Positions 317-15,295 of a stretch of 64,000 bases of DNA are shown here, piece by piece; the first letter of the stretch is position 1; every line of letters starts with the position of its first letter. A program made the position numbers and the translations under genes. The notes beneath the pieces are model-generated. The model was not told the DNA's origin, searched no databases, and saw only the letters and a program-made list of their open reading frames with translations. The stretch is from Komagataeibacter sp. FNDCF1 (GTDB lineage: Bacteria; Pseudomonadota; Alphaproteobacteria; Acetobacterales; Acetobacteraceae), in contig NZ_JAIWOT010000001.1 in assembly GCF_021295335.1 (NCBI RefSeq), positions 65,001 through 129,000 of the forward strand, read 5' to 3'.

Positions 317-3053
<2,737 letters not shown>

Positions 3054-3165
3054 CCATAGCCCCCTTGAAAGGGCAACACACATGCACAGCAGTCATCCAC
3101 TCTCAACACATGACAAAAAACACCAACCCATCCACATCCCCTCCCCATACCGGGGAGACTGGATG

Positions 3166-3282
3166 ACCTGGTGGCAATGGCGGGGAATGATCCACCCGAT
3201 CCCATCCCGAACTCGGCCGTGAAATGCCCCAGCGCCCATGATACTGTGCCTCAAGGCACGGGAAAGTCGGTCGCCGCCAGGT
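3166..3282 (+). rRNA. rrf: 5S ribosomal RNA
   Basis: It starts ACCTGGTGGC and ends GCCAGGT, which pair to form helix I. The loop signature CCCGATCCCATCCCGAACTC lies inside. The length of 117 bases is normal. It follows 23S by about 110 bases in the same rRNA operon. Confidence 0.95.
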
Positions 3283-3303
3283 CTTCCAGTCTCCCCAAAC
3301 AAA

Positions 3304-3380
<77 letters not shown>

Positions 3381-3410
3381 AGCTTAATACACTGAATATG
3401 ATACAAAAAT

Positions 3411-3434
3411 GCCGCCCCCAGAGGCGGCTTTTTT
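3411..3434 (+). terminator. Rho-independent terminator of the rRNA operon
   Basis: GCCGCC at 3411-3416 pairs with GGCGGC at 3423-3428 around a six-base loop and is followed directly by six T. It lies 30 bases after tRNA-fMet and should end the rRNA-tRNA transcript. Confidence 0.9.
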
Positions 3435-3628
3435 GCGTCCAGATTTCCACCGCAGGAAACACATAGGAAACAGACGGAAAGGTACCGGAGCGCATTTTTG
3501 TCAACTTTCACAAATGCGTGATTTGAGAGCGGGGCACCCGGTCGCCTGTTTCGGGGTATCATTCTAGGCTTGTCGAGTCAGGACAGTCTGCCCTTCTGCT
3601 GTCCGTATCAGGAGATGCACGAGCAGCC

Positions 3629-4999
3629 ATGGCCGCAGACGAACTCACGGGACTGATCCATTATCTCGGTCAGGAGGACTGGCAGGAGTGTTTTGGCGAA
3701 GTGCTCGGCGATCACATCGGTCCGGCGCTGGAAGCGGGCGACATCTCCTTCGAGGAACTGGCGGAGATGATCGGCCCTGACGTTGCCATGACGCTGTGGG
3801 GCTGCGCTTTCGAAGATTTTCTCGGGCAGGACCGGGACGATGGCCGGAACTTCGTCGACGTTTACCTCAAACGGCGGGGCTGGAAGGAAGGGCCGCGCAA
3901 CAGCGCCTACATGCGTGCCCTCAAGGCTTCGGTCATGAGCCTGTATGAAGTCTCGGATATCAAACCCGGCCAGAGCCTGATGGCGCGTGACCTGCTGCGG
4001 GGTGGGGAACCCGTTCTGGTGCATGAAGGCACGGCTACCCGGACGCTGGAACAGTGGGACCGGATTGCAGCGCGTCTCGTACCGTCCGATGGAAAGACCA
4101 TTCTGGCAGGCGGGCTGCTCGCCTATTCACGGGGTGCCTGCGAAGATCTGGCTGCGAACCTTTATAGGGCTCTGCGGAAAAGACGGGGCAAGGCCGAGTT
4201 TCCGAAAGTCGATACGCAGACGCTGCATGAACTTGCGCCGATGTTCACGCTGACCTGGCTGTTTCGGACACTGGAGGACACAGCCCGGCAGATGGAGGGG
4301 CCAGCGCTGTTCAATGGGGACGGAGAGGATCTGGTCTTCCACGAAGTATGTTTCCCGCTGGCAAAGGGCGTGACACAGAAGATAGTGGCGGACGTGCTTG
4401 ACGGGATCATGGCCCTGCGACCGGAAAACCGGTCATTCTGGAACTGGCTGAAAGAGCCGATGAGCAATCCCGTGGGCAAGGCTGGACGAGATGAAAACGG
4501 GCGGTTCCTGCGCACGGAGATGGATGATGGTGCGATCGTGCTGGGCACGCTGGATCTTAAGGGGCGGCAGTTGAGGCTGCAGGTGAACTCGAAAGAGCGT
4601 GCCGAACGTGGCCGTGCCATGCTGCAGGCTGGTCTGGGAGATCTCGTGCGCGCTCCGCTCACGCAGATCATGACGCCGGCGCAGGCGATGGAAGACCGGG
4701 GGACGCATGGACGTGAGGTCTCGCCAGAACTGCAGATCCCGCCCGAGGAGGAAGCCCGGATTATCGGGCAGATGCTGGAGCGGCACTATCGGCAGGTGCT
4801 TGATGAGCCTGTTCCGGCTCTGGGGGATATGACGCCACGTCAGGCCGTCCAGACAGCCTCAGGGCGTAAAAAGGTGGCCATCTGGTTGAAGGATATCGAA
4901 AACACTACGGTCCACGCCCAAGGGAGTGGCGGTGCCATGGCTGCCTACGATTTTGGGTGGATGTGGCGCGAACTCGGAATCATCAGGCTCAGGAAATAG
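3629..4999 (+). CDS. hypothetical protein, 456 aa
   Basis: I do not recognise this protein with confidence. It is soluble in appearance: no signal peptide, no membrane segment, many charged residues, acidic N-terminus. The last 75 residues contain a block reading PALGDMTPRQAVQTASGRKK, followed by a helix and AYDFGWMWRELGI. From memory a similar block ends several uncharacterised proteobacterial proteins, some with SEC-C-type zinc motifs, but no zinc ligand cluster is visible here. It starts at an ATG preceded by AGGAGA about 14 bases upstream. It stands alone between the rRNA operon and the restriction locus, so it may be accessory cargo; no role is assigned. Confidence 0.6.
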   Translation: MAADELTGLIHYLGQEDWQECFGEVLGDHIGPALEAGDISFEELAEMIGPDVAMTLWGCAFEDFLGQDRDDGRNFVDVYLKRRGWKEGPRNSAYMRALKASVMSLYEVSDIKPGQSLMARDLLRGGEPVLVHEGTATRTLEQWDRIAARLVPSDGKTILAGGLLAYSRGACEDLAANLYRALRKRRGKAEFPKVDTQTLHELAPMFTLTWLFRTLEDTARQMEGPALFNGDGEDLVFHEVCFPLAKGVTQKIVADVLDGIMALRPENRSFWNWLKEPMSNPVGKAGRDENGRFLRTEMDDGAIVLGTLDLKGRQLRLQVNSKERAERGRAMLQAGLGDLVRAPLTQIMTPAQAMEDRGTHGREVSPELQIPPEEEARIIGQMLERHYRQVLDEPVPALGDMTPRQAVQTASGRKKVAIWLKDIENTTVHAQGSGGAMAAYDFGWMWRELGIIRLRK

Positions 5000-5163
5000 T
5001 CCGCTTACGCCTCATGTCGGACATACAGCTGTCCAGATCGTTTTCTGCATAAAGCCAGCGTGATCTCATCAGAACTCTGAAATTGCTTGGAATTCCCGCC
5101 TTGAAGGAAACCACAAATTTCCATAGAAATCCCCAAAAAGGTGATCTTGGGAAAGTGCTTCGT

Positions 5164-5355
5164 ATGGCAGCTGACATCATGAGCATTGATGAAGTCGCCC
5201 ACTATCTCAGTATCAACAGGAAAACCGCTTGGCACTTTGCGGTCGACAGCAAACTGTCAGGCTTCCGCGGTGGTGACACCGAGCGGTTTTGGCGCATGGA
5301 TATTGAGGACTGGATCAAGCGTGAAGCCAGTCCGAAGAAGGACAAAAAGAGATGA
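5164..5355 (+). CDS. small helix-turn-helix DNA-binding protein (excisionase-like), 63 aa
   Basis: The product is one helix-turn-helix unit: [18 protein letters not shown], then a wing-like stretch and [15 protein letters not shown], the layout of excisionase/MerR-like small DNA-binding proteins. Its stop overlaps the hsdM start in an ATGA, so the two are translationally coupled and probably form one operon. A TTG at 5083 would extend the frame by 27 residues, but the ATG at 5164 begins exactly where the recognisable fold begins and is preferred. It could be a controller of the restriction operon or a leftover excisionase; the sequence does not decide between these. Confidence 0.65.
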
Positions 5356-6899
5356 CCGGCCAAGCACAACGCGCAGCGCTACAACGGAAAATCTGGGACA
5401 TCGCGAACGATGTGCGCGGCTCAGTCGATGGCTGGGACTTCAAGCAATATGTCCTCGGCACGCTCTTTTACCGCTTTATCAGCGAGAATTTCGCTGCGTA
5501 TATCGAGGGGGGTGAAGAGGGCATCGATTATGCGGCTCTATCCGATGACGTCATCACTGATGACATTAAGGACGATGCCATCAAGACCAAGGGCTATTTC
5601 ATCTACCCCAGCCAGCTGTTCACCAATGTGGCAGACGACGCCAACACGAATGACAGCCTGAACACCGATCTGGCGCAGATTTTTGCGGCTATTGAATCCT
5701 CGGCCAATGGCTATCCGTCTGAGCCGGATATCAGGGGCCTGTTCGCCGATTTCGACACGACCAGCGCGCGCCTCGGCAATACCGTCACGGAAAAGAATAG
5801 CCGATTAGCCAAGGTGCTTAAGCGCGTTGCGGAACTGGATTTCGGAGACTTCGACAACAGCCAGATTGACCTGTTCGGTGATGCCTATGAATTCCTGATC
5901 TCTAACTATGCCGCCAATGCGGGCAAGTCTGGCGGGGAGTTTTTCACTCCGCAACATGTCTCAAAGCTCATCGCGCAGCTTGCCATGCACGGGCAGGAAA
6001 AGGTCAACAAGATTTACGACCCGGCCTGCGGCTCCGGCTCACTGCTGCTGCAAGCCAAAAAGCAGTTCGATGAACACATCATTGAAGAGGGTTTCTTCGG
6101 GCAGGAGATCAATCACACGACCTATAACCTCGCCCGCATGAACATGTTCCTGCACAACATTAATTATGACAAGTTCAATATACAGCGTGGCGATACGCTC
6201 ACCCAGCCGCATTTCCAGGACGAAAAGCCCTTTGATGCCATCGTTTCCAACCCGCCCTATTCGGTGAAGTGGATCGGCTCGGACGATCCGACTCTGATCA
6301 ACGATGACCGCTTTGCTCCGGCGGGAGTGCTGGCGCCCAAATCAAAGGCCGATTTCGCCTTTGTACTCCATGCGCTCAGCTATCTCTCGGCCAAGGGTCG
6401 CGCGGCGATCATATGCTTCCCGGGGATCTTCTATCGCGACGGCGCAGAGAAGAAGATCCGTCAATATCTGGTCGATAACAACTATGTCGAGACGGTCATC
6501 GCGCTCGCCTCCAACCTTTTCTACGGAACGACCATCGCGGTAACGATCCTGATCCTCGCCAAGAACAAGACCGACACGGCCATCCAATTCATCGACGCCA
6601 GCGGGGAAGAATTCTTTAAGAAGGCCACCAACACCAATCTTATGACGGACAAACACATCGCGCGGGTGATGGAGATTTTTGATCGCAAGGAAGACGTCGA
6701 TCATGTCGCCGCCTCTGTGCCGTATGAGACCATCGTGGAGCGCAACTATAACCTCTCGGTCAGCTCCTATGTCGAGCCGTGCGACACGCGCGAAGTGATC
6801 GACATCAATGTCCTCAATGACAAAATTAGCACGACAGTTGAGCGGATCAATTGGCTTCGTGCCGATATTGACGCCATCATTGCGGAGATCGAGGCATGA
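5352..6899 (+). CDS. hsdM: type I restriction-modification system, DNA methyltransferase subunit
   Basis: HsdM is the N6-adenine methyltransferase subunit of the M2S and R2M2S complexes. The 515-aa protein has an N-terminal HsdM helical domain (about 1-150) and an N6-MTase domain with the AdoMet-binding motif [11 protein letters not shown] (from residue 223) and catalytic motif NPPY (residues 300-303). The length fits type IC HsdM (EcoR124I about 520). It overlaps the upstream HTH gene by ATGA and hsdS by ATGA. The hsd genes look less GC-rich than the metabolic genes downstream, consistent with horizontal acquisition. Confidence 0.96.
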
Positions 6900-8119
6900 G
6901 CGCGGCGGGGTTTCTGGAGAAGCTTCTGGATGGGGCTGAGGTAGTGTGGGTGCCTTTGGGAGATGAAAGCTTTTTCGAGATCGCCAATACCGCACGCAGG
7001 CCGGTCAAAGCCTCTTTGCGCGCAGCTGGAGAAATCCCCTACTACGGCGCGAACAACATTCAGGACTACGTCGACGGCCATACGCACAACGGCGAATACG
7101 TCCTTATCGCTGAAGATGGTTCAGCAAGTCTCGAAAATTACTCGATCCAATATGTTCAGGGGAAATTCTGGGCCAACAACCATGTTCACGTTGTGAGGGG
7201 AGCCGACGGAGTCGATACGCGGTTTCTATTCCACTATTTGACGACGGCCAACTTCCTCCCGTTCCTATCGAGCAAAGGACGGGCAAAGCTGACAAAGGGA
7301 AATTTGATTCAAATCACGGTCCCTATCCCATGCCCTGATGATCCGGAGAAGTCGCTGTCGATACAGGGGGAAATTGTCCGGATACTCGACAGCTTCACTG
7401 AGCTTACCACTGAACTTACTACTGAGCTTACCGCCGAGCTTACCCAGCGCAAAAAGCAATACAACCATTACCGCGAACAACTTCTGACTTTCGATGACGG
7501 TGAGGTGAAGTATTTGCCAATGGGTGATGAGCGAGTGGGAAAATTCATTCGCGGCGGCGGACTGCAAAAGAAGGATTTCATCAGTTCAGGCGTCGGCTGC
7601 ATTCACTATGGTCAGATTTATACGCACTATGGAACTCATACCGGCAGAACCAAAAGCTATGTTTCGGAAAACTTTGCTCGCAAAGCTCGCATGGCGAAAC
7701 CTGGAAATCTGGTAATCGCAACCACAAGTGAAAATGATGACGATGTTTGCAAGGCTGTCGCTTGGTTAGGTGATCAAGACATCGCAGTTAGTAGCGACGC
7801 TTGCTTTTATGCACACAAATTGAACCCTAAATTTGTTTCGTACTTCTTCCAAACCGAACAGTTTCAATTACAGAAAAGGCCTTATATTACTGGTACAAAA
7901 GTCAGACGCGTGAACGCCGATAACCTTGCCAAAATACTGATTCCCATACCCTCTTTGGGGGAACAAGCCCGTATCGCTGCCATCCTCGACAAGTTCGACA
8001 CGCTAACCACCTCCCTGACCGAGGGCCTGTCCCGCGAAATCGAGTTGCGCGAAAAACAATATGCTTATTATCGCGATCAGCTGCTGAGTTTTCCCAAGCC
8101 TGACGCAGGGGCAGCGTAA
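6896..8119 (+). CDS. hsdS: type I restriction-modification system, specificity subunit
   Basis: HsdS (407 aa) holds two target-recognition domains, roughly residues 10-160 and 205-355. Each is followed by a conserved helical spacer ending in a related motif: [12 protein letters not shown] after the first, [12 protein letters not shown] at the C-terminus. The central spacer carries four TELT/AELT tetrapeptides, the hallmark of type IC subunits, where repeat number sets the gap in the bipartite target. The stop codon touches the prrC start with no spacing. The DNA target cannot be read from the sequence, since recognition domains are hypervariable. Confidence 0.94.
7397..7444 (+). repeat. four 12-bp tandem repeats inside hsdS (TAEL-type spacer repeats)
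   Basis: Four consecutive 12-bp units, ACTGAGCTTACC, ACTGAACTTACT, ACTGAGCTTACC and GCCGAGCTTACC, encode [16 protein letters not shown]. The unit keeps the reading frame, so gain or loss of copies by slippage changes only the length of the central HsdS spacer. In EcoR124I the change from two to three TAEL units alters the spacer of the recognised DNA by one base. Confidence 0.9.
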
Positions 8120-9235
8120 ATGGGACAGACGCTGCCCGAGATCGCGGAGAAGCTGCGAGACGCCTCCAAAAAGGTGCAACTGATCTATGCGTTCAACGCC
8201 TCCGGCAAGACGCGCCTTTCACGTGAATTCAGGGAGCTGATCGACCCGAAGACCGAGGCGCGGGATGACGAGCATCGCCCCAAGGTGCTCTACTACAACG
8301 CCTTCACCGAAGATCTGTTCTACTGGGACAACGATCTTGAGGGGGACATTGAGCGCAAGCTCAAAATTCAGCCGAACGCCTATACAAAATCCGCCTTTGA
8401 AGATTTAGGCCTTGATGGCAATGTCATCGCAACATTCCAGCGCTACACGCAGCCAAATCTGACACCACGATTCAGTACGGACTTTTCGGAGGTCACTTTC
8501 TCCCTTGAGCGCGGCACCGATACGAGTACCGGCAATCTGAAGATCTCCAAGGGCGAGGAAAGCAACTTCATCTGGAGCGTCTTCTACTGCCTGCTGGATC
8601 AGGTCATCAGCACCCGTAACGTCCCTGACGTCGATGAGCGCGAGACGGATCAGTTTAATGATCTCGAATATGTCTTCATTGACGACCCGGTTAGCTCGCT
8701 TGATGACAACCACCTCATTCAGCTTGCAGTTGATATCGTGGACCTGATCAAGAGAAGCGACACGGTGAACGGTCTAAAGTTCATCATCACAACGCACAGC
8801 CCGCTTTTTTTCAACGTGCTGTTCAACGAGCTAAATAGCAAAACGTGTTACATGCTGAATCGGTTTGAGGATGGAACGTTCGAGCTGACAGAGAAGAGTG
8901 GCGATTCAAACCAATGCTTTTCTTATCACCTGTACCTTAAGAAGACGTTGGAGGAGGCAATCGCGACGGACAAGATCGAGCGCTATCACTTCACCCTGCT
9001 GCGCAATCTCTATGAAAAGACATCGAACTTTCTGGGCTATCCGCGATGGTCAGACCTGCTGCCGGGCGAACAGCGCCTTTACCTGAAGCGCATTATTCAG
9101 TTTACAAGCCATAGCACGCTCTCCAGCGAGGCTATCCCCGACCCCTCGCCGGAGGAAAAGCGGACGGTGAAGCTCCTGCTGGATCATCTGCGCAACAATT
9201 ACAGCTATTGGCAGGGGGAGGCCCCAAATGCCTGA
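8120..9235 (+). CDS. prrC: anticodon nuclease PrrC
   Basis: PrrC is a latent tRNA-Lys anticodon nuclease held silent by its type I restriction partner and released when a phage inhibits restriction. The 371-aa protein has an N-terminal ABC/SMC-like NTPase: P-loop region [11 protein letters not shown] near residue 22-32, a KGEESNF segment replacing the usual LSxGE signature, and a Walker B/D-loop region [13 protein letters not shown]. The C-terminal nuclease part has [14 protein letters not shown] with D262, and R295, E299 and H331. Published E. coli PrrC residues D287, R320, E324 and H356 have exactly the same mutual spacing (33, 4, 32). The order hsdM-hsdS-prrC-hsdR equals the E. coli prr locus. 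The start abuts the hsdS stop; the end overlaps hsdR by 8 bases. A generic AAA ATPase is the alternative call, but the residue spacing argues for PrrC. Confidence 0.92.
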
Positions 9236-12200
9236 GCAGACGACGTCGATCGCCGAGACTAATCGCTTTATCGTTCTCGATAAATATGTGCGCGCCTGGG
9301 AGGTGGCTGACAGCTATCAGTCTGAGGCCGACTTGGAGCGCGAGTTTGTTCAGGACCTGCACGATCAAGGCTATGAGTATCTGCCTGACCTTAAATCAAC
9401 CAGCGCCATGCTAGCGAATATTCGCGTTCAGCTGCAAACTCTCAACGATGTTCAATTTACAGATAAGGAATGGGTGCGCTTCGTTGAGACCTACCTGGAT
9501 CGACCCAGCGACACTGCCACGGACAAGACCCGCAAGATCCACGACGACTACATCTTTGACTTCGTCTTCGATGATGGTCGTATCCAAAATATCTATCTGG
9601 TTGATAAGGCCAATGTCTGCCGCAACAAGGTTCAGGTCATCAAGCAGTTCGAGCAAACAGGCACTCATGCGAACCGCTATGATGTGACCATTCTGGTGAA
9701 CGGACTGCCGCTGGTGCAAGTCGAGCTGAAAAAGCGCGGCGTCGCCATTCGGGAAGCGTTCAACCAGATCCACCGTTACAGCAAAGAAAGCTTCAACTCG
9801 GACAATTCGCTCTTTAAGTACCTTCAGATCTTCGTAATCTCGAACGGTACGGATACGCGCTATTTTGCCAACACGACCAAGCGCGACAAGAACAGCTTTG
9901 ACTTCACGATGAACTGGGCGCAGGCTGATAACAGCTTGATCCGGGACCTGAAGGATTTTACGGCGACCTTCTTTGAGAAGCGCACGTTGTTGAACGTGTT
10001 GTTGAACTATTCCGTTTTCGATGTTAGCGACACGCTGCTGGTGATGCGCCCCTATCAGATCGCGGCGACTGAACGAATCTTACGAAAGATCAAAAGCTCG
10101 TTCGAAGGCAAGACGCTTAGTAAGCCGGAAAGTGGCGGATATATCTGGCACACTACAGGCTCAGGCAAAACGCTGACCAGCTTCAAGGCGGCCCGCCTTG
10201 CCACGCAGCTCGACTTCATCGACAAGGTCTTTTTCGTGGTCGACCGCAAGGACCTCGATTTCCAAACGATGAAGGAATATCAGCGCTTTTCGCCGGACAG
10301 CGTCAATGGATCGGACAGTACAGCCGGGTTGAAGCGAAACCTCTCCAAGGACGATAACAAGATTATCGTCACGACCATCCAGAAGCTCAACAATCTGATG
10401 AAGAGCGCAGGGGACCTGCCGGTCTATACCCAGCGCGTCGTCTTCATTTTCGACGAGTGCCATCGCAGCCAGTTTGGTGAGGCACAGAAGAACCTCAAGC
10501 GGAAGTTCAAACAGTTCTGCCAGTTCGGCTTCACCGGCACGCCGATCTTTTCGGAAAATGCTTCGGGTGCGGAGACGACGGCCAGCATATTCGGAAGCGA
10601 ACTTCATTCCTATGTGATCACCGACGCGATCCGCGACCAAAAGGTGCTAAAGTTCAAAGTCGACTACAACGATGTGCGCCCGCAGTTCAAAGCGATTGAA
10701 ACCGAACAGGACGAAAAGAAGCTGACCGCCGCTGAAAACCAGCAAGCTCTTCAGCACCCAGCACGAATCTCTGAAATTTCTCAGTACATTCTCGATAACT
10801 TCCGCCGCAAGACGCATCGTCTTTATGGAGACAATAAGGGCTTCAATGCCATGTTCGCGGTGAGCAGTGTTGATGCAGCTAAGCTCTATTATGAAAAGCT
10901 GAATGCGCTTCAGGACGGTAGCGACAAGCCGTTGAAGATCGCGACCATCTTTTCATTTGCCGACAACGAAGAACAGGATGCGATTGGCGACATTCCTGAC
11001 GAGAGTTTTGAGGTTTCAGCGCTGAATAGCAGCGCCAAGGAATTCCTGAACGCTGCGATCACGGACTACAACGCCTATTTCCGAACGAATTTCAGCGCAG
11101 ATAGTAAGGGCTTCCAGAATTATTACCGGGATCTGGCGAAACGGGTGAAGTCCAAGGAAGTTGACCTGCTCATTGTGGTTGGCATGTTCCTGACCGGCTT
11201 CGACGCGCAAACCCTGAACACGCTGTTCGTCGACAAGAATTTGCGTTTTCACGGTCTTATACAAGCCTACTCCCGTACCAACCGCATTTATGATGCGACC
11301 AAGTCCTTCGGCAACATCGTTACCTTCCGCGACTTGGAAGAGGCGACCGTCAAGGCAATCACACTCTTTGGCAACGCCAATACCAAGAATGTTGTTCTGG
11401 AGAAAAGCTACTCAGAATACATGGAAGGTTTTACGGACCAGACGACAGGCGAGGCAAGGCGAGGCTTTATCGATGTCGTCCGTGAGTTGAAAGAGCGTTT
11501 CCCGGATCCCACTGCCATCGAAAAGGAAGCGGACAAAAAGGCCTTTGCAAAGCTGTTCGGCGAGTATCTCCGTATTGAGAATATCCTTCAGAATTATGAT
11601 GAGTTCTCCAACCTAAAAGAACTTCAGGAGATCGACGAGAGTGACGTGGAAGCGATGGGCGCGTTCAAGGAGCGGTGTCATTTAAGTGATGATGACGTTG
11701 ACGAGCTCAAAAGCATCGAAATGCCCACTGATCGAAAGGTCCAGGATTACCGTTCGACCTACAATGATATTCGGGATTGGCTTCGCCGTGAAAAGGCTAG
11801 CGCCGAGCAGGGTGAGTCAACGATCGACTGGGAGGATGTCGTCTTTGAGGTCGACCTCTTGAAGTCCCAGGAAATAAATCTGGATTACATCCTTGAGCTA
11901 ATCTTCGAGCACAACAAAAAAACGAAGAGCAAGTCAGAGCTCGTTAGCGAAGTTCGTCGTGTCATTCGTGCCAGTATTGGCAACCGCGCGAAAGAAAGCC
12001 TCATTGTGGATTTCATCAATCAGACAAACCTAGACGAACTGAGGGACAAGGCAGGGGTAATTGAGGCTTTTTTTGCCTTCGCACAAGCCGAACGATGCCG
12101 GGAAGCGAAAGAATTGATAACCGATGAAAAATTGAACGCGGAGGCCGCCAAGCGCTATATTGCAACGTCGATCAAGCGTGAATATGCGAGCGAAAATGGC

Positions 12201-12329
12201 ACAGAGTTGAACTCGATCCTTCCAAAAATGAGCCCGCTCAATCCAAAATACCTGACCAAAAAAAGAGATGTGTTCCAGCGCATCTCTGCGTTCGTTGAAA
12301 AGTTTAAGGGTGTGGGCGGAAAAATTTAG
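9228..12329 (+). CDS. hsdR: type I restriction-modification system, restriction/translocase subunit
   Basis: HsdR (1033 aa) is the motor and nuclease of the R2M2S complex. The nuclease motif is D152...E166-L-K168, in [18 protein letters not shown], one residue off EcoR124I D151/E165/K167. The SF2 helicase part has Walker A TGSGKT with K314 and a DECH box starting at D409, then motif III-VI regions including GFTGTPIF and [10 protein letters not shown]. The length nearly equals EcoR124I HsdR, and all key residues are present, so the subunit looks active. The start lies inside the end of prrC, so translation is probably coupled. Confidence 0.96.
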
Positions 12330-12540
12330 GCATGTTCACGACTTTAGATGACTGTACCTATTAAGCGCAGTCAACAGTCCACCGCACATAACCCTCGAAA
12401 ACAATCTAGGAATCCGGCCGCTTCCGGATCGGGAGAATGCTTTCGCAAGGGCACGAACTATACGCCGGAGTAATCGGCTGGCGCTAGCAGCCTGTCGGGT
12501 TGGGGTACCCTGTGAAGGGGTAAGGCTGTAGAGTGTCGCG

Positions 12541-12733: not shown

Positions 12734-12816
12734 GTAAGCACCCGGCGACTGCCGCCTTGCTGAATATTTCTATTCTGGTTCAGCTATGAATCATGAGCGA
12801 TTCAAGAGATAGAGAC

Positions 12817-12851
12817 GCGGTACTACCTGCGAGTGTCGCAGGTAGTACCGC
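12817..12851 (+). promoter_or_regulatory. perfect 16-bp stem hairpin in the IS66 leader, before tnpA
   Basis: GCGGTACTACCTGCGA (12817-12832) and TCGCAGGTAGTACCGC (12836-12851) are exact inverted copies around the loop GTG. The hairpin ends 22 bases before the tnpA start at 12874 and just before its AAGGGA ribosome site. There is no T-tract, so it is not a standard terminator. It could limit readthrough translation from outside promoters or be a protein-binding site; the role is inferred. Confidence 0.6.
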
Positions 12852-12873
12852 AGAGAGGCTCCAAGGGAGCGGT

Positions 12874-13275
12874 ATGGAGGCAGGAGAGCGAGACAGGCTG
12901 GCGGAAGCCTCGCGGATCGAGATCGTTTCAGATCGCCGCCGCTGGCACGCCCCTGAATTTCGCGCGCGCGTGGTCATCGCGTCCTACGAGAGCCGGCGCC
13001 CCGTAAGGGAGGTGGCTGCACAGTATGGTGTTCATCCAAGCCTGGTGTTTCGGTGGCGGCGAGAGGCCCGGGCCAAAGCGCAGGGCGGAACATCGTTCGT
13101 GCCTGTCATGGTGGCTCCGGCACCTCAGCCGCAGGCATTGGAGCGTCGAAGCGAACAGGGAACGCCGCCTGGCCGAGCGGTCAGCGTGGTCTTTCCGGAC
13201 GGTGTGCGGCTCGAATTCGACACGGGGCTGTCCGCTGATCGTCTGCGTGAGATTGTGGGCGCGCTGCGGTCATGA
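12874..13275 (+). CDS. tnpA: IS66-family protein TnpA (HTH)
   Basis: This is the accessory HTH protein of IS66. It has the motif FRARVVIASYESRRPVREVA followed by AAQYGVHPSLVFRWRRE, a Hin/IS3-OrfA-like helix-turn-helix, and a C-terminal VVFPDGVRLEFD segment typical of IS66 OrfA. The ATG at 12874 with AAGGGA upstream is chosen. The in-frame ATG at 12793 would force translation through the perfect hairpin at 12817-12851. The stop overlaps the tnpB start by ATGA. It is 133 aa from this start. Confidence 0.88.
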   Translation: MEAGERDRLAEASRIEIVSDRRRWHAPEFRARVVIASYESRRPVREVAAQYGVHPSLVFRWRREARAKAQGGTSFVPVMVAPAPQPQALERRSEQGTPPGRAVSVVFPDGVRLEFDTGLSADRLREIVGALRS

Positions 13276-13619
13276 TTCCGCTTCCCTCCACGCTGAGGAT
13301 ATGGCTGGCGGCCGGCGTGACCGATATGCGCCTCGGGATGCCCGGGCTGGCCCTGAAAGTCCAGGAAACGCTGGGTCGTGATCCTTTCGCCGGCGACGTT
13401 TATGTCTTCAGGGGAAAGCGCGGCGACCTGGTGAAACTGATCTGGCACGATGGCGTAGGCCTGTCATTATATGCGAAGCGGATCGAGCGTGGGCATTTCC
13501 TCTGGCCCTCGGCCAGGGACGGGGTGATCCATCTTTCCCCGTCACAATTAAGTTGCCTGCTGGAAGGGATCGACTGGAGAAACCCGCAGAAAACCTGGAG
13601 ACCCGAACTGGCGGGATAA
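13272..13619 (+). CDS. tnpB: IS66-family protein TnpB
   Basis: This is a 115-aa IS66 Orf2 protein (DUF with TnpB fold), recognised by LPSTLRIWLAAGVTDMRLGM, FRGKRGDLVKLIWHDGVGL and KRIERGHFLWP. It is required for IS66 transposition with TnpA and TnpC. It is coupled to tnpA by an ATGA overlap and appears complete. Confidence 0.93.
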   Translation: MIPLPSTLRIWLAAGVTDMRLGMPGLALKVQETLGRDPFAGDVYVFRGKRGDLVKLIWHDGVGLSLYAKRIERGHFLWPSARDGVIHLSPSQLSCLLEGIDWRNPQKTWRPELAG

Positions 13620-13666
13620 TAAAAACTGCGCCAGATCAGCATATACTGGTACTCTTTTGAGCGCCC

Positions 13667-15295
13667 ATGTGGTCAACTGTCTTCATGACGGGAGACACGG
13701 ACGAGATGATGGCCCTGCGCGCGGCACTTGCCGCGGTCGAGGCGCGCGCTCAGGTCGCCGAATTCCGGGCGTCTTCTGCCGAAACCCGGGCCACTGCCGC
13801 TGAAACCCGAGCGATCAGCGCCGAGGCGCAGATCGCCCATCTCAAGCACCTCATTGCGCGGATGCGCCAGGACCGTTTCGGGGCCTCATCGGAGCGGGGG
13901 CGCCGTCTGCTGGCCCAGTTCGAACTCGAACTGGAAGATCTGGAGACGGCGCACGCCGAGGATGCGCCGGAAAACGCTCCGGATCCTGCCGTGCGGGCGA
14001 CAGCGCCCCGGCGCAATCACGGTCGCCAGCCGTTGCGCGCCGATCTCCCGCGCGAACGGGTCGTCATCCCCGTGCCGACACATTGCCCGTGCTGTGGCGG
14101 CGAGCGCCTGAGCAAACTGGGGGAGAGCGTCACCGAGACGCTGGAGGTGATCCCGCGCCAGTTCAAGGTGATTCAGACGATACGCGAGAAATTCACCTGC
14201 CGCGACTGCGAGAACATCATCCAGCCCCCGGCACCTTTCCACCCGATCGCGCGCGGACGGGCCGGGCCAAAGCTGCTTGCGGGCATCCTGTGCGACAAGT
14301 TCCTGCAGCATCTGCCGCTGAACCGGCAGAGCGCCGCATTTGCCCGTGAGGGGATCGATCTCGATACCTCGACGCTGGCCGACTGGGTGGGGGCCTGCAC
14401 GGCGACGCTGGCGCCCCTTACCGCGCTGATCCGGGCACATGTGCTGGCAGCCCGGCGTCTGCATGCGGACGATACCACAGTGCCCGTGCTGGCCAGGGGG
14501 CGCACCGTGACCGGACGGTTGTGGAATTACGTGCGCGACGATGCCCCATTTGGCGGCCTCGCGCCCCCAGCCGTGTGGTTCCGCTACTCCCGAGACCGCA
14601 AAGGTGAACATCCGGCCGACCATCTCACCGGCTGGACCGGAATCCTGCAATCAGACGCCTATGGCGGATACACCCACCTGGCAAAGCCGGGACGCCAGCC
14701 CGCGCCTGTTGTTCCGGCCGGCTGCTGGGCGCATGGACGCCGGGGACTGTTCAAGATTGCCGAAAAGGACAAGGCGCCACTCGCCATAGAGGCCGTGCGC
14801 CGGATCGACGCCATATTCGACGCCGAACGCGCGATCAACGGCAGCTCCGCCGCACATCGGCTGGAGATCCGCAAGGAGAGCATCGCCCCGCTGGTCGAGG
14901 AGTTGCTCGACTGGATGCGCGATACCTGCCGGCGCATGTCGTCCAAAAACCCCATCGCCCAGGCAATGAACTATATTCTCAGACGGGGCGATACATTCAC
15001 GGTATTTCTGGAAGACGGTCGGATCTGTCTGACGAATAACGCGGCGGAACGCGCAATCCGGGGTATCGCACTGGGGAGAAAAGCCTGGCTGTTCGCCGGC
15101 TCCGATCGTGGCGGTGAAAGAGCCGCCGCCATGTATTCCCTCGTCGTCACCTGCCGCCTGAACGAGGTCGATCCTCAGGCATGGCTCGCCGATGTGCTCG
15201 CCCGCATCAACGACACTCCCAACCCACGCCTCCATGAACTCCTGCCCTGGCATTGGAAACCCATTGCTCAAGGCGAGAATAACGTCGCTGCCTGA
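13667..15295 (+). CDS. tnpC: IS66-family DDE transposase TnpC
   Basis: The 542-aa transposase has an N-terminal coiled-coil-like alanine/arginine-rich segment (about 10-75), a zinc-binding stretch with CPCCGGERL and FTCRDC, and the IS66 catalytic core with ADDTTVPVL, QSDAYGGY and the C-terminal LTNNAAERAIRGIALGRK. These give the expected acidic triad. The first ATG of the open frame is used; the ATG at 13685 is an equally possible start because neither has a strong ribosome site. It ends 30 bases before the right tip. Confidence 0.93.
   Translation: MWSTVFMTGDTDEMMALRAALAAVEARAQVAEFRASSAETRATAAETRAISAEAQIAHLKHLIARMRQDRFGASSERGRRLLAQFELELEDLETAHAEDAPENAPDPAVRATAPRRNHGRQPLRADLPRERVVIPVPTHCPCCGGERLSKLGESVTETLEVIPRQFKVIQTIREKFTCRDCENIIQPPAPFHPIARGRAGPKLLAGILCDKFLQHLPLNRQSAAFAREGIDLDTSTLADWVGACTATLAPLTALIRAHVLAARRLHADDTTVPVLARGRTVTGRLWNYVRDDAPFGGLAPPAVWFRYSRDRKGEHPADHLTGWTGILQSDAYGGYTHLAKPGRQPAPVVPAGCWAHGRRGLFKIAEKDKAPLAIEAVRRIDAIFDAERAINGSSAAHRLEIRKESIAPLVEELLDWMRDTCRRMSSKNPIAQAMNYILRRGDTFTVFLEDGRICLTNNAAERAIRGIALGRKAWLFAGSDRGGERAAAMYSLVVTCRLNEVDPQAWLADVLARINDTPNPRLHELLPWHWKPIAQGENNVAA

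Follow-up and report, generated by a model that had tools for sequence, protein, structure and literature searches.

Does the gene that separates hsdS from hsdR at positions 8120 to 9235 (forward strand) of a 64,000-nucleotide (nt) stretch of Komagataeibacter sp. FNDCF1 DNA (the window, meaning this whole stretch) encode a PrrC anticodon nuclease, and is that gene intact? The original prediction, made from the sequence alone, described a full-length PrrC embedded in a type IC restriction operon. Profile matches, alignment, active-site residues, gene order and gene overlap support this assignment. Overall we favor, with a probability of about 0.9, an intact prrC that selection maintains within what is probably a five-gene type IC operon encoding a helix-turn-helix (HTH) protein, HsdM, HsdS, PrrC and HsdR, with a mechanism that would follow that of Escherichia coli. 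The type of system is already known, and this prrC is a further member of the PrrC family, ordinary in kind.

The open reading frame (ORF) has the predicted extent, running from ATG through a stop codon and encoding 371 amino acids (aa). The only Pfam match above cut-off is the generic AAA_13 (49.6 bits) and no NCBIfam match is listed; thus, the remark that the gene could be passed off as a generic AAA ATPase was fair. The PADLOC PrrC model matches at 477 bits (E 8.8e-144) and covers residues 3-368. A plasmid-encoded E. coli protein of 396 aa annotated as "anticodon nuclease" (locus L001, NZ_CP116245.1) aligns over its full length with 62% identity. The N-terminal ATP-binding cassette (ABC) ATPase domain occupies approximately residues 1-260 and contains Walker A, signature, Walker B and linchpin His motifs. 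Residues 58-72 form a 15-residue block identical to that of E. coli and a candidate for the 15-residue "PrrC box". Also present is the conserved 14-residue block to which the original prediction pointed, with GDSNKSFSYHLHLK as its E. coli counterpart. Only one PrrC match was found in the genome at E up to 0.001, ruling out a second copy.

The protein is full-length in domain content, as predicted, but not in size: it has 25 aa fewer than E. coli PrrC. Most of the difference lies before Walker A, where the biggest gap (16 aa) falls just ahead of the Walker A strand. Five of the seven other aligned sequences, including E. coli L003, lack the same stretch, and it is present in L001 and, in an even longer version, in the nearest family member, L005. 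Thus, we regard it as a variable linker subject to natural variation, and truncation of PrrC is ruled out.

The C-terminal nuclease domain carries D262, R295, E299 and H331 at the claimed positions, with spacings of 33, 4 and 32. In E. coli L001 the corresponding residues fall at exactly 287, 320, 324 and 356, and alignment with that protein, proposed as a check of the original prediction, pairs all four. We compared 120 PrrC-type proteins: that of the window, three from E. coli, five from the same family, 80 from genome contigs and 31 from viral contigs. The genome-contig sequences are the best 80 of at least 567, and so represent close kin; 17 proteins (L003, L008, L009, L106-L118 and L120) were assigned by hand to a distant group. 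All 120 keep the Arg, Glu and His triad. At the position of Asp287, 99 of the 103 close proteins have Asp (the others have one Asn, one Ala and two gaps); of the 17 distant proteins only one is aligned there, the other 16 having a gap. The tRNA recognition stretch (E. coli 284-294, KYGDSNKSFSY) is identical at eight of 11 positions in the window protein, with the Asp287 equivalent kept.

The same ABC motifs and Arg-X3-Glu...His triad occur in RloC, according to the published account (PMC2610378). The gene could therefore encode an anticodon nuclease of the RloC type, which excises the wobble nucleotide and responds to DNA breaks. However, RloC carries a zinc-hook insert (a coiled coil with CxxC) and is rarely linked to restriction-modification (R-M) genes (PMC2610378). 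The window protein, with its 371 aa, contains no CxxC in translation and so lacks the hook, and its gene sits in a type IC operon. The PADLOC PrrC score compares with 46.5 bits for the next family listed, in a library that may hold no RloC model. We consider an RloC identity extremely unlikely and continue with PrrC.

Upstream of prrC are genes for the type IC DNA methyltransferase subunit (hsdM, 5352..6899; TIGR00497, 649 bits) and for a specificity subunit with two target-recognition domains (hsdS, 6896..8119; PF01420 in two stretches, PADLOC Specificity_I E 1.6e-141). Downstream is the gene for the restriction/translocase subunit (hsdR, 9228..12329), which overlaps prrC by 8 nt. All are on the forward strand. 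HsdR matches EcoR124 HsdR (2w00) with 1751 bits over residues 1-1033 and includes the EcoR124_C domain (PF12008), and HsdM matches the EcoR124II M protein (7bst) with 907 bits. Thus, the operon is of type IC, as had been proposed, and other type I classes are ruled out.

The order hsdM-hsdS-prrC-hsdR is, as predicted, that of the E. coli prr locus, seen here in L001. The likeness to this EcoprrI-type locus extends to the 8-nt prrC/hsdR overlap, the ABC motifs and the equivalents of D287, R320, E324 and H356. HsdM and HsdR are 79% and 76% identical to those of L001, HsdS only 33%; the window also differs from L001 in having the HTH gene before hsdM. In 90 of 102 close loci (the window not counted) hsdM and hsdS are upstream and hsdR downstream of prrC, all in one orientation. 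In the other 12, hsdR is likewise downstream, and no more than about 1 kb of sequence is available ahead of prrC, not enough to include hsdM. The 8-nt overlap is common to 43 of 52 measurable loci.

Two of the distant loci, L003 and L008, show the type IC gene order. In 15 of the 17 (L009, L106-L118 and L120) hsdM lies downstream of prrC, and hsdR is seen upstream in 11 of those 15. These loci resemble the gene set of Klebsiella PrrC170, and most lack an aligned Asp287. PrrC170 shares with the window protein the combination of ABC and nuclease domains and linkage to R-M genes, and is reported to cleave tRNA-Lys, the predicted target here, but its gene order is hsdR, hsdS, prrC, hsdM and it is 35% identical to E. 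coli PrrC (PMC11555353). We infer that PrrC170 belongs with this distant group.

The first gene of the operon is probably a small one encoding an HTH protein (5164..5355, forward strand; 63 aa from ATG), which overlaps hsdM by 4 nt. Its profile matches are below cut-off (HTH_17, 22.1 bits against a Pfam cut-off of 27; MADS1-like HTH, 44.5 bits against 80). The ATG at 5164 is common to all five loci compared. Frames 68-69% identical precede hsdM in L012, L046 and L090, and weaker ones occur in seven further loci. A Zymomonas plasmid has an annotated HTH gene of 192 nt in the same place.

PrrCs may lack activity when the linked R-M system is cryptic (PMC3874168), and transposase genes (12793-15295) follow the operon, so that prrC might be a decaying or inactive passenger. 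The reading frames of hsdM, hsdS, prrC and hsdR are nevertheless open over their whole length and the catalytic residues of PrrC are kept. Comparison with six close relatives gives dN (nonsynonymous divergence) of 0.08-0.13 and dS (synonymous divergence) of 0.74-0.91, a dN/dS of approximately 0.11-0.17 that points to purifying selection. A passenger gene is thus very unlikely, and we favor a maintained prrC.

By analogy with E. coli, for which a two-layer defense has been described (PMC3014915, PMC3874168), PrrC would be held inactive while complexed with the Hsd enzyme. Phage inhibition of restriction (in E. coli, by T4 Stp) would be the trigger. The ABC domain would then hydrolyze GTP, dTTP acting as stabilizer, and so release the C-terminal nuclease, which would cleave tRNA-Lys(UUU) on the 5' side of the wobble base, thereby stopping phage protein synthesis. 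We infer a similar sequence of restriction followed by tRNA-Lys cleavage in the window host.

The putative target is encoded. Typing of all 47 tRNA matches in the genome revealed one tRNA-Lys(UUU) gene and one tRNA-Lys(CUU) gene. The UUU anticodon loop, CTTTTAA, is that of a tRNA-Lys from a Citrobacter that carries PrrC, and the CUU loop differs at the wobble base only. An exact Lys-CUU pattern match was found in at least 15 of 40 genome-contig hosts (40 of the 80 were examined; four had no pattern match at all), indicating that coexistence of the two isoacceptors is common. With two isoacceptors, cutting only the UUU species would prevent the decoding of AAA, not of every lysine codon, a nuance absent from the original prediction. 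We counted 422 AAA and 863 AAG codons in 129 non-overlapping ORFs (200 aa or longer) from 240 kb of host sequence. As 113 of the 129 contain AAA, synthesis of most proteins should still stop if only Lys-UUU were lost, although probably less completely than in E. coli.

Several observations weigh against an E. coli-like PrrC acting in this host. Modeling of the protein, also proposed as a check, yields a Rad50-like ABC head, but the nuclease half is without structural match and the model is weak at and after H331 (predicted local distance difference test score, pLDDT, below 50 for residues 331-338). A sequence search of the PDB found no related chain. No phage trigger resembling Stp came to light for this host, in an analysis that included no search for one. 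No PrrC is among the 50 Foldseek and 50 VIA-align matches listed, which cover the ABC half only. The second tRNA-Lys (CUU) could soften the effect of cleavage. E. coli PrrC is sensitive to modification of the wobble base (PMC3014915), and the MnmC C-terminal domain scores only 62.5 bits in this genome against a cut-off of 174.2, which two of 14 control genomes pass. Thus, the wobble base may carry a side group unlike that of E. coli. On the supporting side, mnmA, mnmE and mnmG are present, mnmE scoring above cut-off only when taken together with frame neighbors.

If wobble modification and tRNA set differ from those of E. coli, a PrrC by descent might cut another tRNA, or both tRNA-Lys isoacceptors. 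The single wobble-base difference between the two anticodon loops and the sub-threshold MnmC domain would fit this, and substrates may vary among PrrCs (PMC3014915). Conservation of the recognition stretch, with Asp287, argues for the usual target, as does the finding that most anticodon mutants of E. coli tRNA-Lys are poor substrates (PMC3014915). Moreover, a more distant PrrC, the 35% identical one from Klebsiella, still targets tRNA-Lys (PMC11555353). An altered target is therefore unlikely, and tRNA-Lys(UUU) remains the predicted substrate.

The window operon is chromosomal and lies beside an rRNA operon: 23S, 5S and tRNA-Met genes (317-3377) are followed by a gene for a 456-aa protein (3390-5025) that matches nothing in Pfam, NCBIfam or PADLOC. 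Homology to the six same-genus stretches examined stops at 5020-5025, and this common breakpoint behind the 456-aa gene suggests an insertion hot spot. Genomes of the same genus contain the 456-aa gene again as a bounded block of approximately 1.63 kb, as though it moved independently, and the block occurs on 17 named plasmids (ten of Acetobacter, five of Komagataeibacter and two of Gluconobacter), genera that fit the original placement of the DNA in an acetic acid bacterium. In contrast to the window, the E. coli operons L001 and L002 lie among phage-type genes. They adjoin phd/doc-type, terminase and late-promoter-activator genes, surroundings that we take to be those of a P1-like phage-plasmid.

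The closest operons include plasmid-borne ones. The Zymomonas plasmids pZZM405 (Z. mobilis) and pZYMOP02 match positions 5000-12500 with 91.2% DNA identity over 91% and 89.5% over 88% of that interval, respectively. The 91.2% identity of pZZM405 points to transfer of the operon between distant alphaproteobacteria. Both plasmids have type I R-M operons with the gene order of the window. HsdM and HsdR are 94-95% identical to those of the window, whereas PrrC is 82% and 55% and HsdS 72% and 69% identical in pZZM405 and pZYMOP02, respectively. A text search for the Zymomonas R-M system found no paper. Komagataeibacter saccharivorans LMG 1582 (L012) has the order HTH-hsdM-hsdS-prrC-hsdR of the window, with HsdM 93% and HsdR 95% identical, but PrrC only 79% and HsdS 52%.

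These unequal identities raise the question of whether prrC moves between operons independently. Between the window and Zymomonas, Komagataeibacter and other close operons, dS is 0.24-0.63 for hsdM (six loci), 0.23-0.91 for hsdR (seven) and 0.74-3.12 for prrC (seven). The clearest case is Zymomonas pomaceae L243, with HsdM 95%, HsdR 94% and PrrC 55% identical to those of the window. The reverse is also seen: E. coli, Citrobacter and Buttiauxella prrCs are close (synonymous distance, pS, 0.18-0.26), with hsd backbones at pS 0.57-0.68. For E. coli L001 and Buttiauxella L039, dS is 0.20 for prrC, 1.34 for hsdM and 1.09 for hsdR. Of 102 sequences entered (window included), the 84 with all three genes complete gave 3486 pairs. 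Over these, rank correlation of synonymous distances is 0.92 between hsdM and hsdR, and 0.75 and 0.78 when prrC is paired with one or the other; protein identities give 0.79, 0.52 and 0.45. Synonymous differences between the prrC of the window and that of L242 or L012 are most frequent in codons 51-200 and fall off toward either end of the gene.

Only PrrC and HsdM trees were made, both by a quick method, from 31 of 32 sequences (L048, incomplete, was dropped). In the HsdM tree the window and L243 are sisters (Shimodaira-Hasegawa-like approximate likelihood ratio test, SH-aLRT, 95) within a seven-member clade (100). Data from PrrC modestly reject this clade (approximately unbiased, AU, test; p-AU 0.038). 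The other six stay together (SH-aLRT 99), and thus only L243 leaves the group.

Faster evolution of prrC alone explains the dS excess less well. The excess is at synonymous sites and some pairs, such as L001 and L039, are reversed, so exchange fits better. Other points limit this interpretation. Twenty pairs that share members, hand-picked from the 252 in which HsdR is 86% or more identical, had a mixed outcome: prrC dS exceeds that of both neighbors in 13, is below both in four and does neither in three. In L010 prrC dS (0.74) is lower than that of hsdR (0.91). The AU test was made after the identities had been seen, and L243 is a long branch. In addition, prrC may hitch-hike with hsdS, as the 3' end of hsdM is raised as well in some pairs. 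Overall, synonymous divergence and the trees suggest that prrC alleles have been exchanged independently of hsdM and hsdR, in both directions. An exchangeable prrC module between better conserved hsdM and hsdR is supported, not proven. We would put at even odds the fuller proposal that prrC is an effector cassette recombined, like hsdS target domains, between type IC operons with far less changed hsdM and hsdR, in some pairs mainly within the inner ATPase domain (approximately codons 50-200).

Variation in other parts of these operons was also observed. A 12-bp tandem repeat in the window hsdS (7396..7444, forward strand; 4.1 copies) encodes xxEL spacer repeats between the HsdS halves. In EcoR124I and EcoR124II, a change in the number of xxEL repeats alters the spacer of the recognition site. 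The number of units ranges from one to four among the 78 sequences in which the motif was found (window included). The two recognition halves of HsdS are found in swapped positions among relatives: the first half of HsdS in L005 (184-1383) is matched by window residues 199-399 (70%), and that in L010 (6726-8000) by residues 192-400 (73%). A swapped half in L090 was ruled out, as this locus has an apparent fusion of HsdM and half an HsdS. Such single ORFs, reading from hsdM into a half-length hsdS ahead of prrC, occur in L090 (3829-6000) and L037 (5837-7996) and encode 723 or 719 aa. Extra genes between prrC and hsdR encode a YhcG/DUF1016 PDDEXK nuclease in L028 (9091-10173) and a RhuM-family protein in L083 (9121-10161). 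L025 and L078, whose records name Citrobacter sp. 18056 and Chryseobacterium sp. 18061, have identical HsdM, HsdS, PrrC and HsdR proteins, reflecting either contamination or very recent transfer.

Of 150 genomes sampled from the family, six encode PrrC-type proteins, counting that of the window. The same six have a strong match to the window HsdR (E up to 1e-100), and two (L008 and L009) are of the distant kind. Text searches of part of the literature are consistent with the statement that this known type of system is rarely noted in the group. PrrC relatives occur on 31 viral contigs, and a search of 50,697 phage records returned no PrrC match.

In summary, this operon gives acetic acid bacteria a clean and intact example of the restriction-plus-anticodon-nuclease family. 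It provides a test case for whether PrrC defense remains effective when the host has two tRNA-Lys species. In Zymomonas or acetic acid bacteria, knocking out only the restriction components could set the tRNA nuclease free. If exchange of prrC holds with more genomes, the back-up effector of a restriction system would be shuffled like its specificity subunit. The second layer of defense would thus be diversified, perhaps against phage anti-restriction activators or to fit the partner HsdS.
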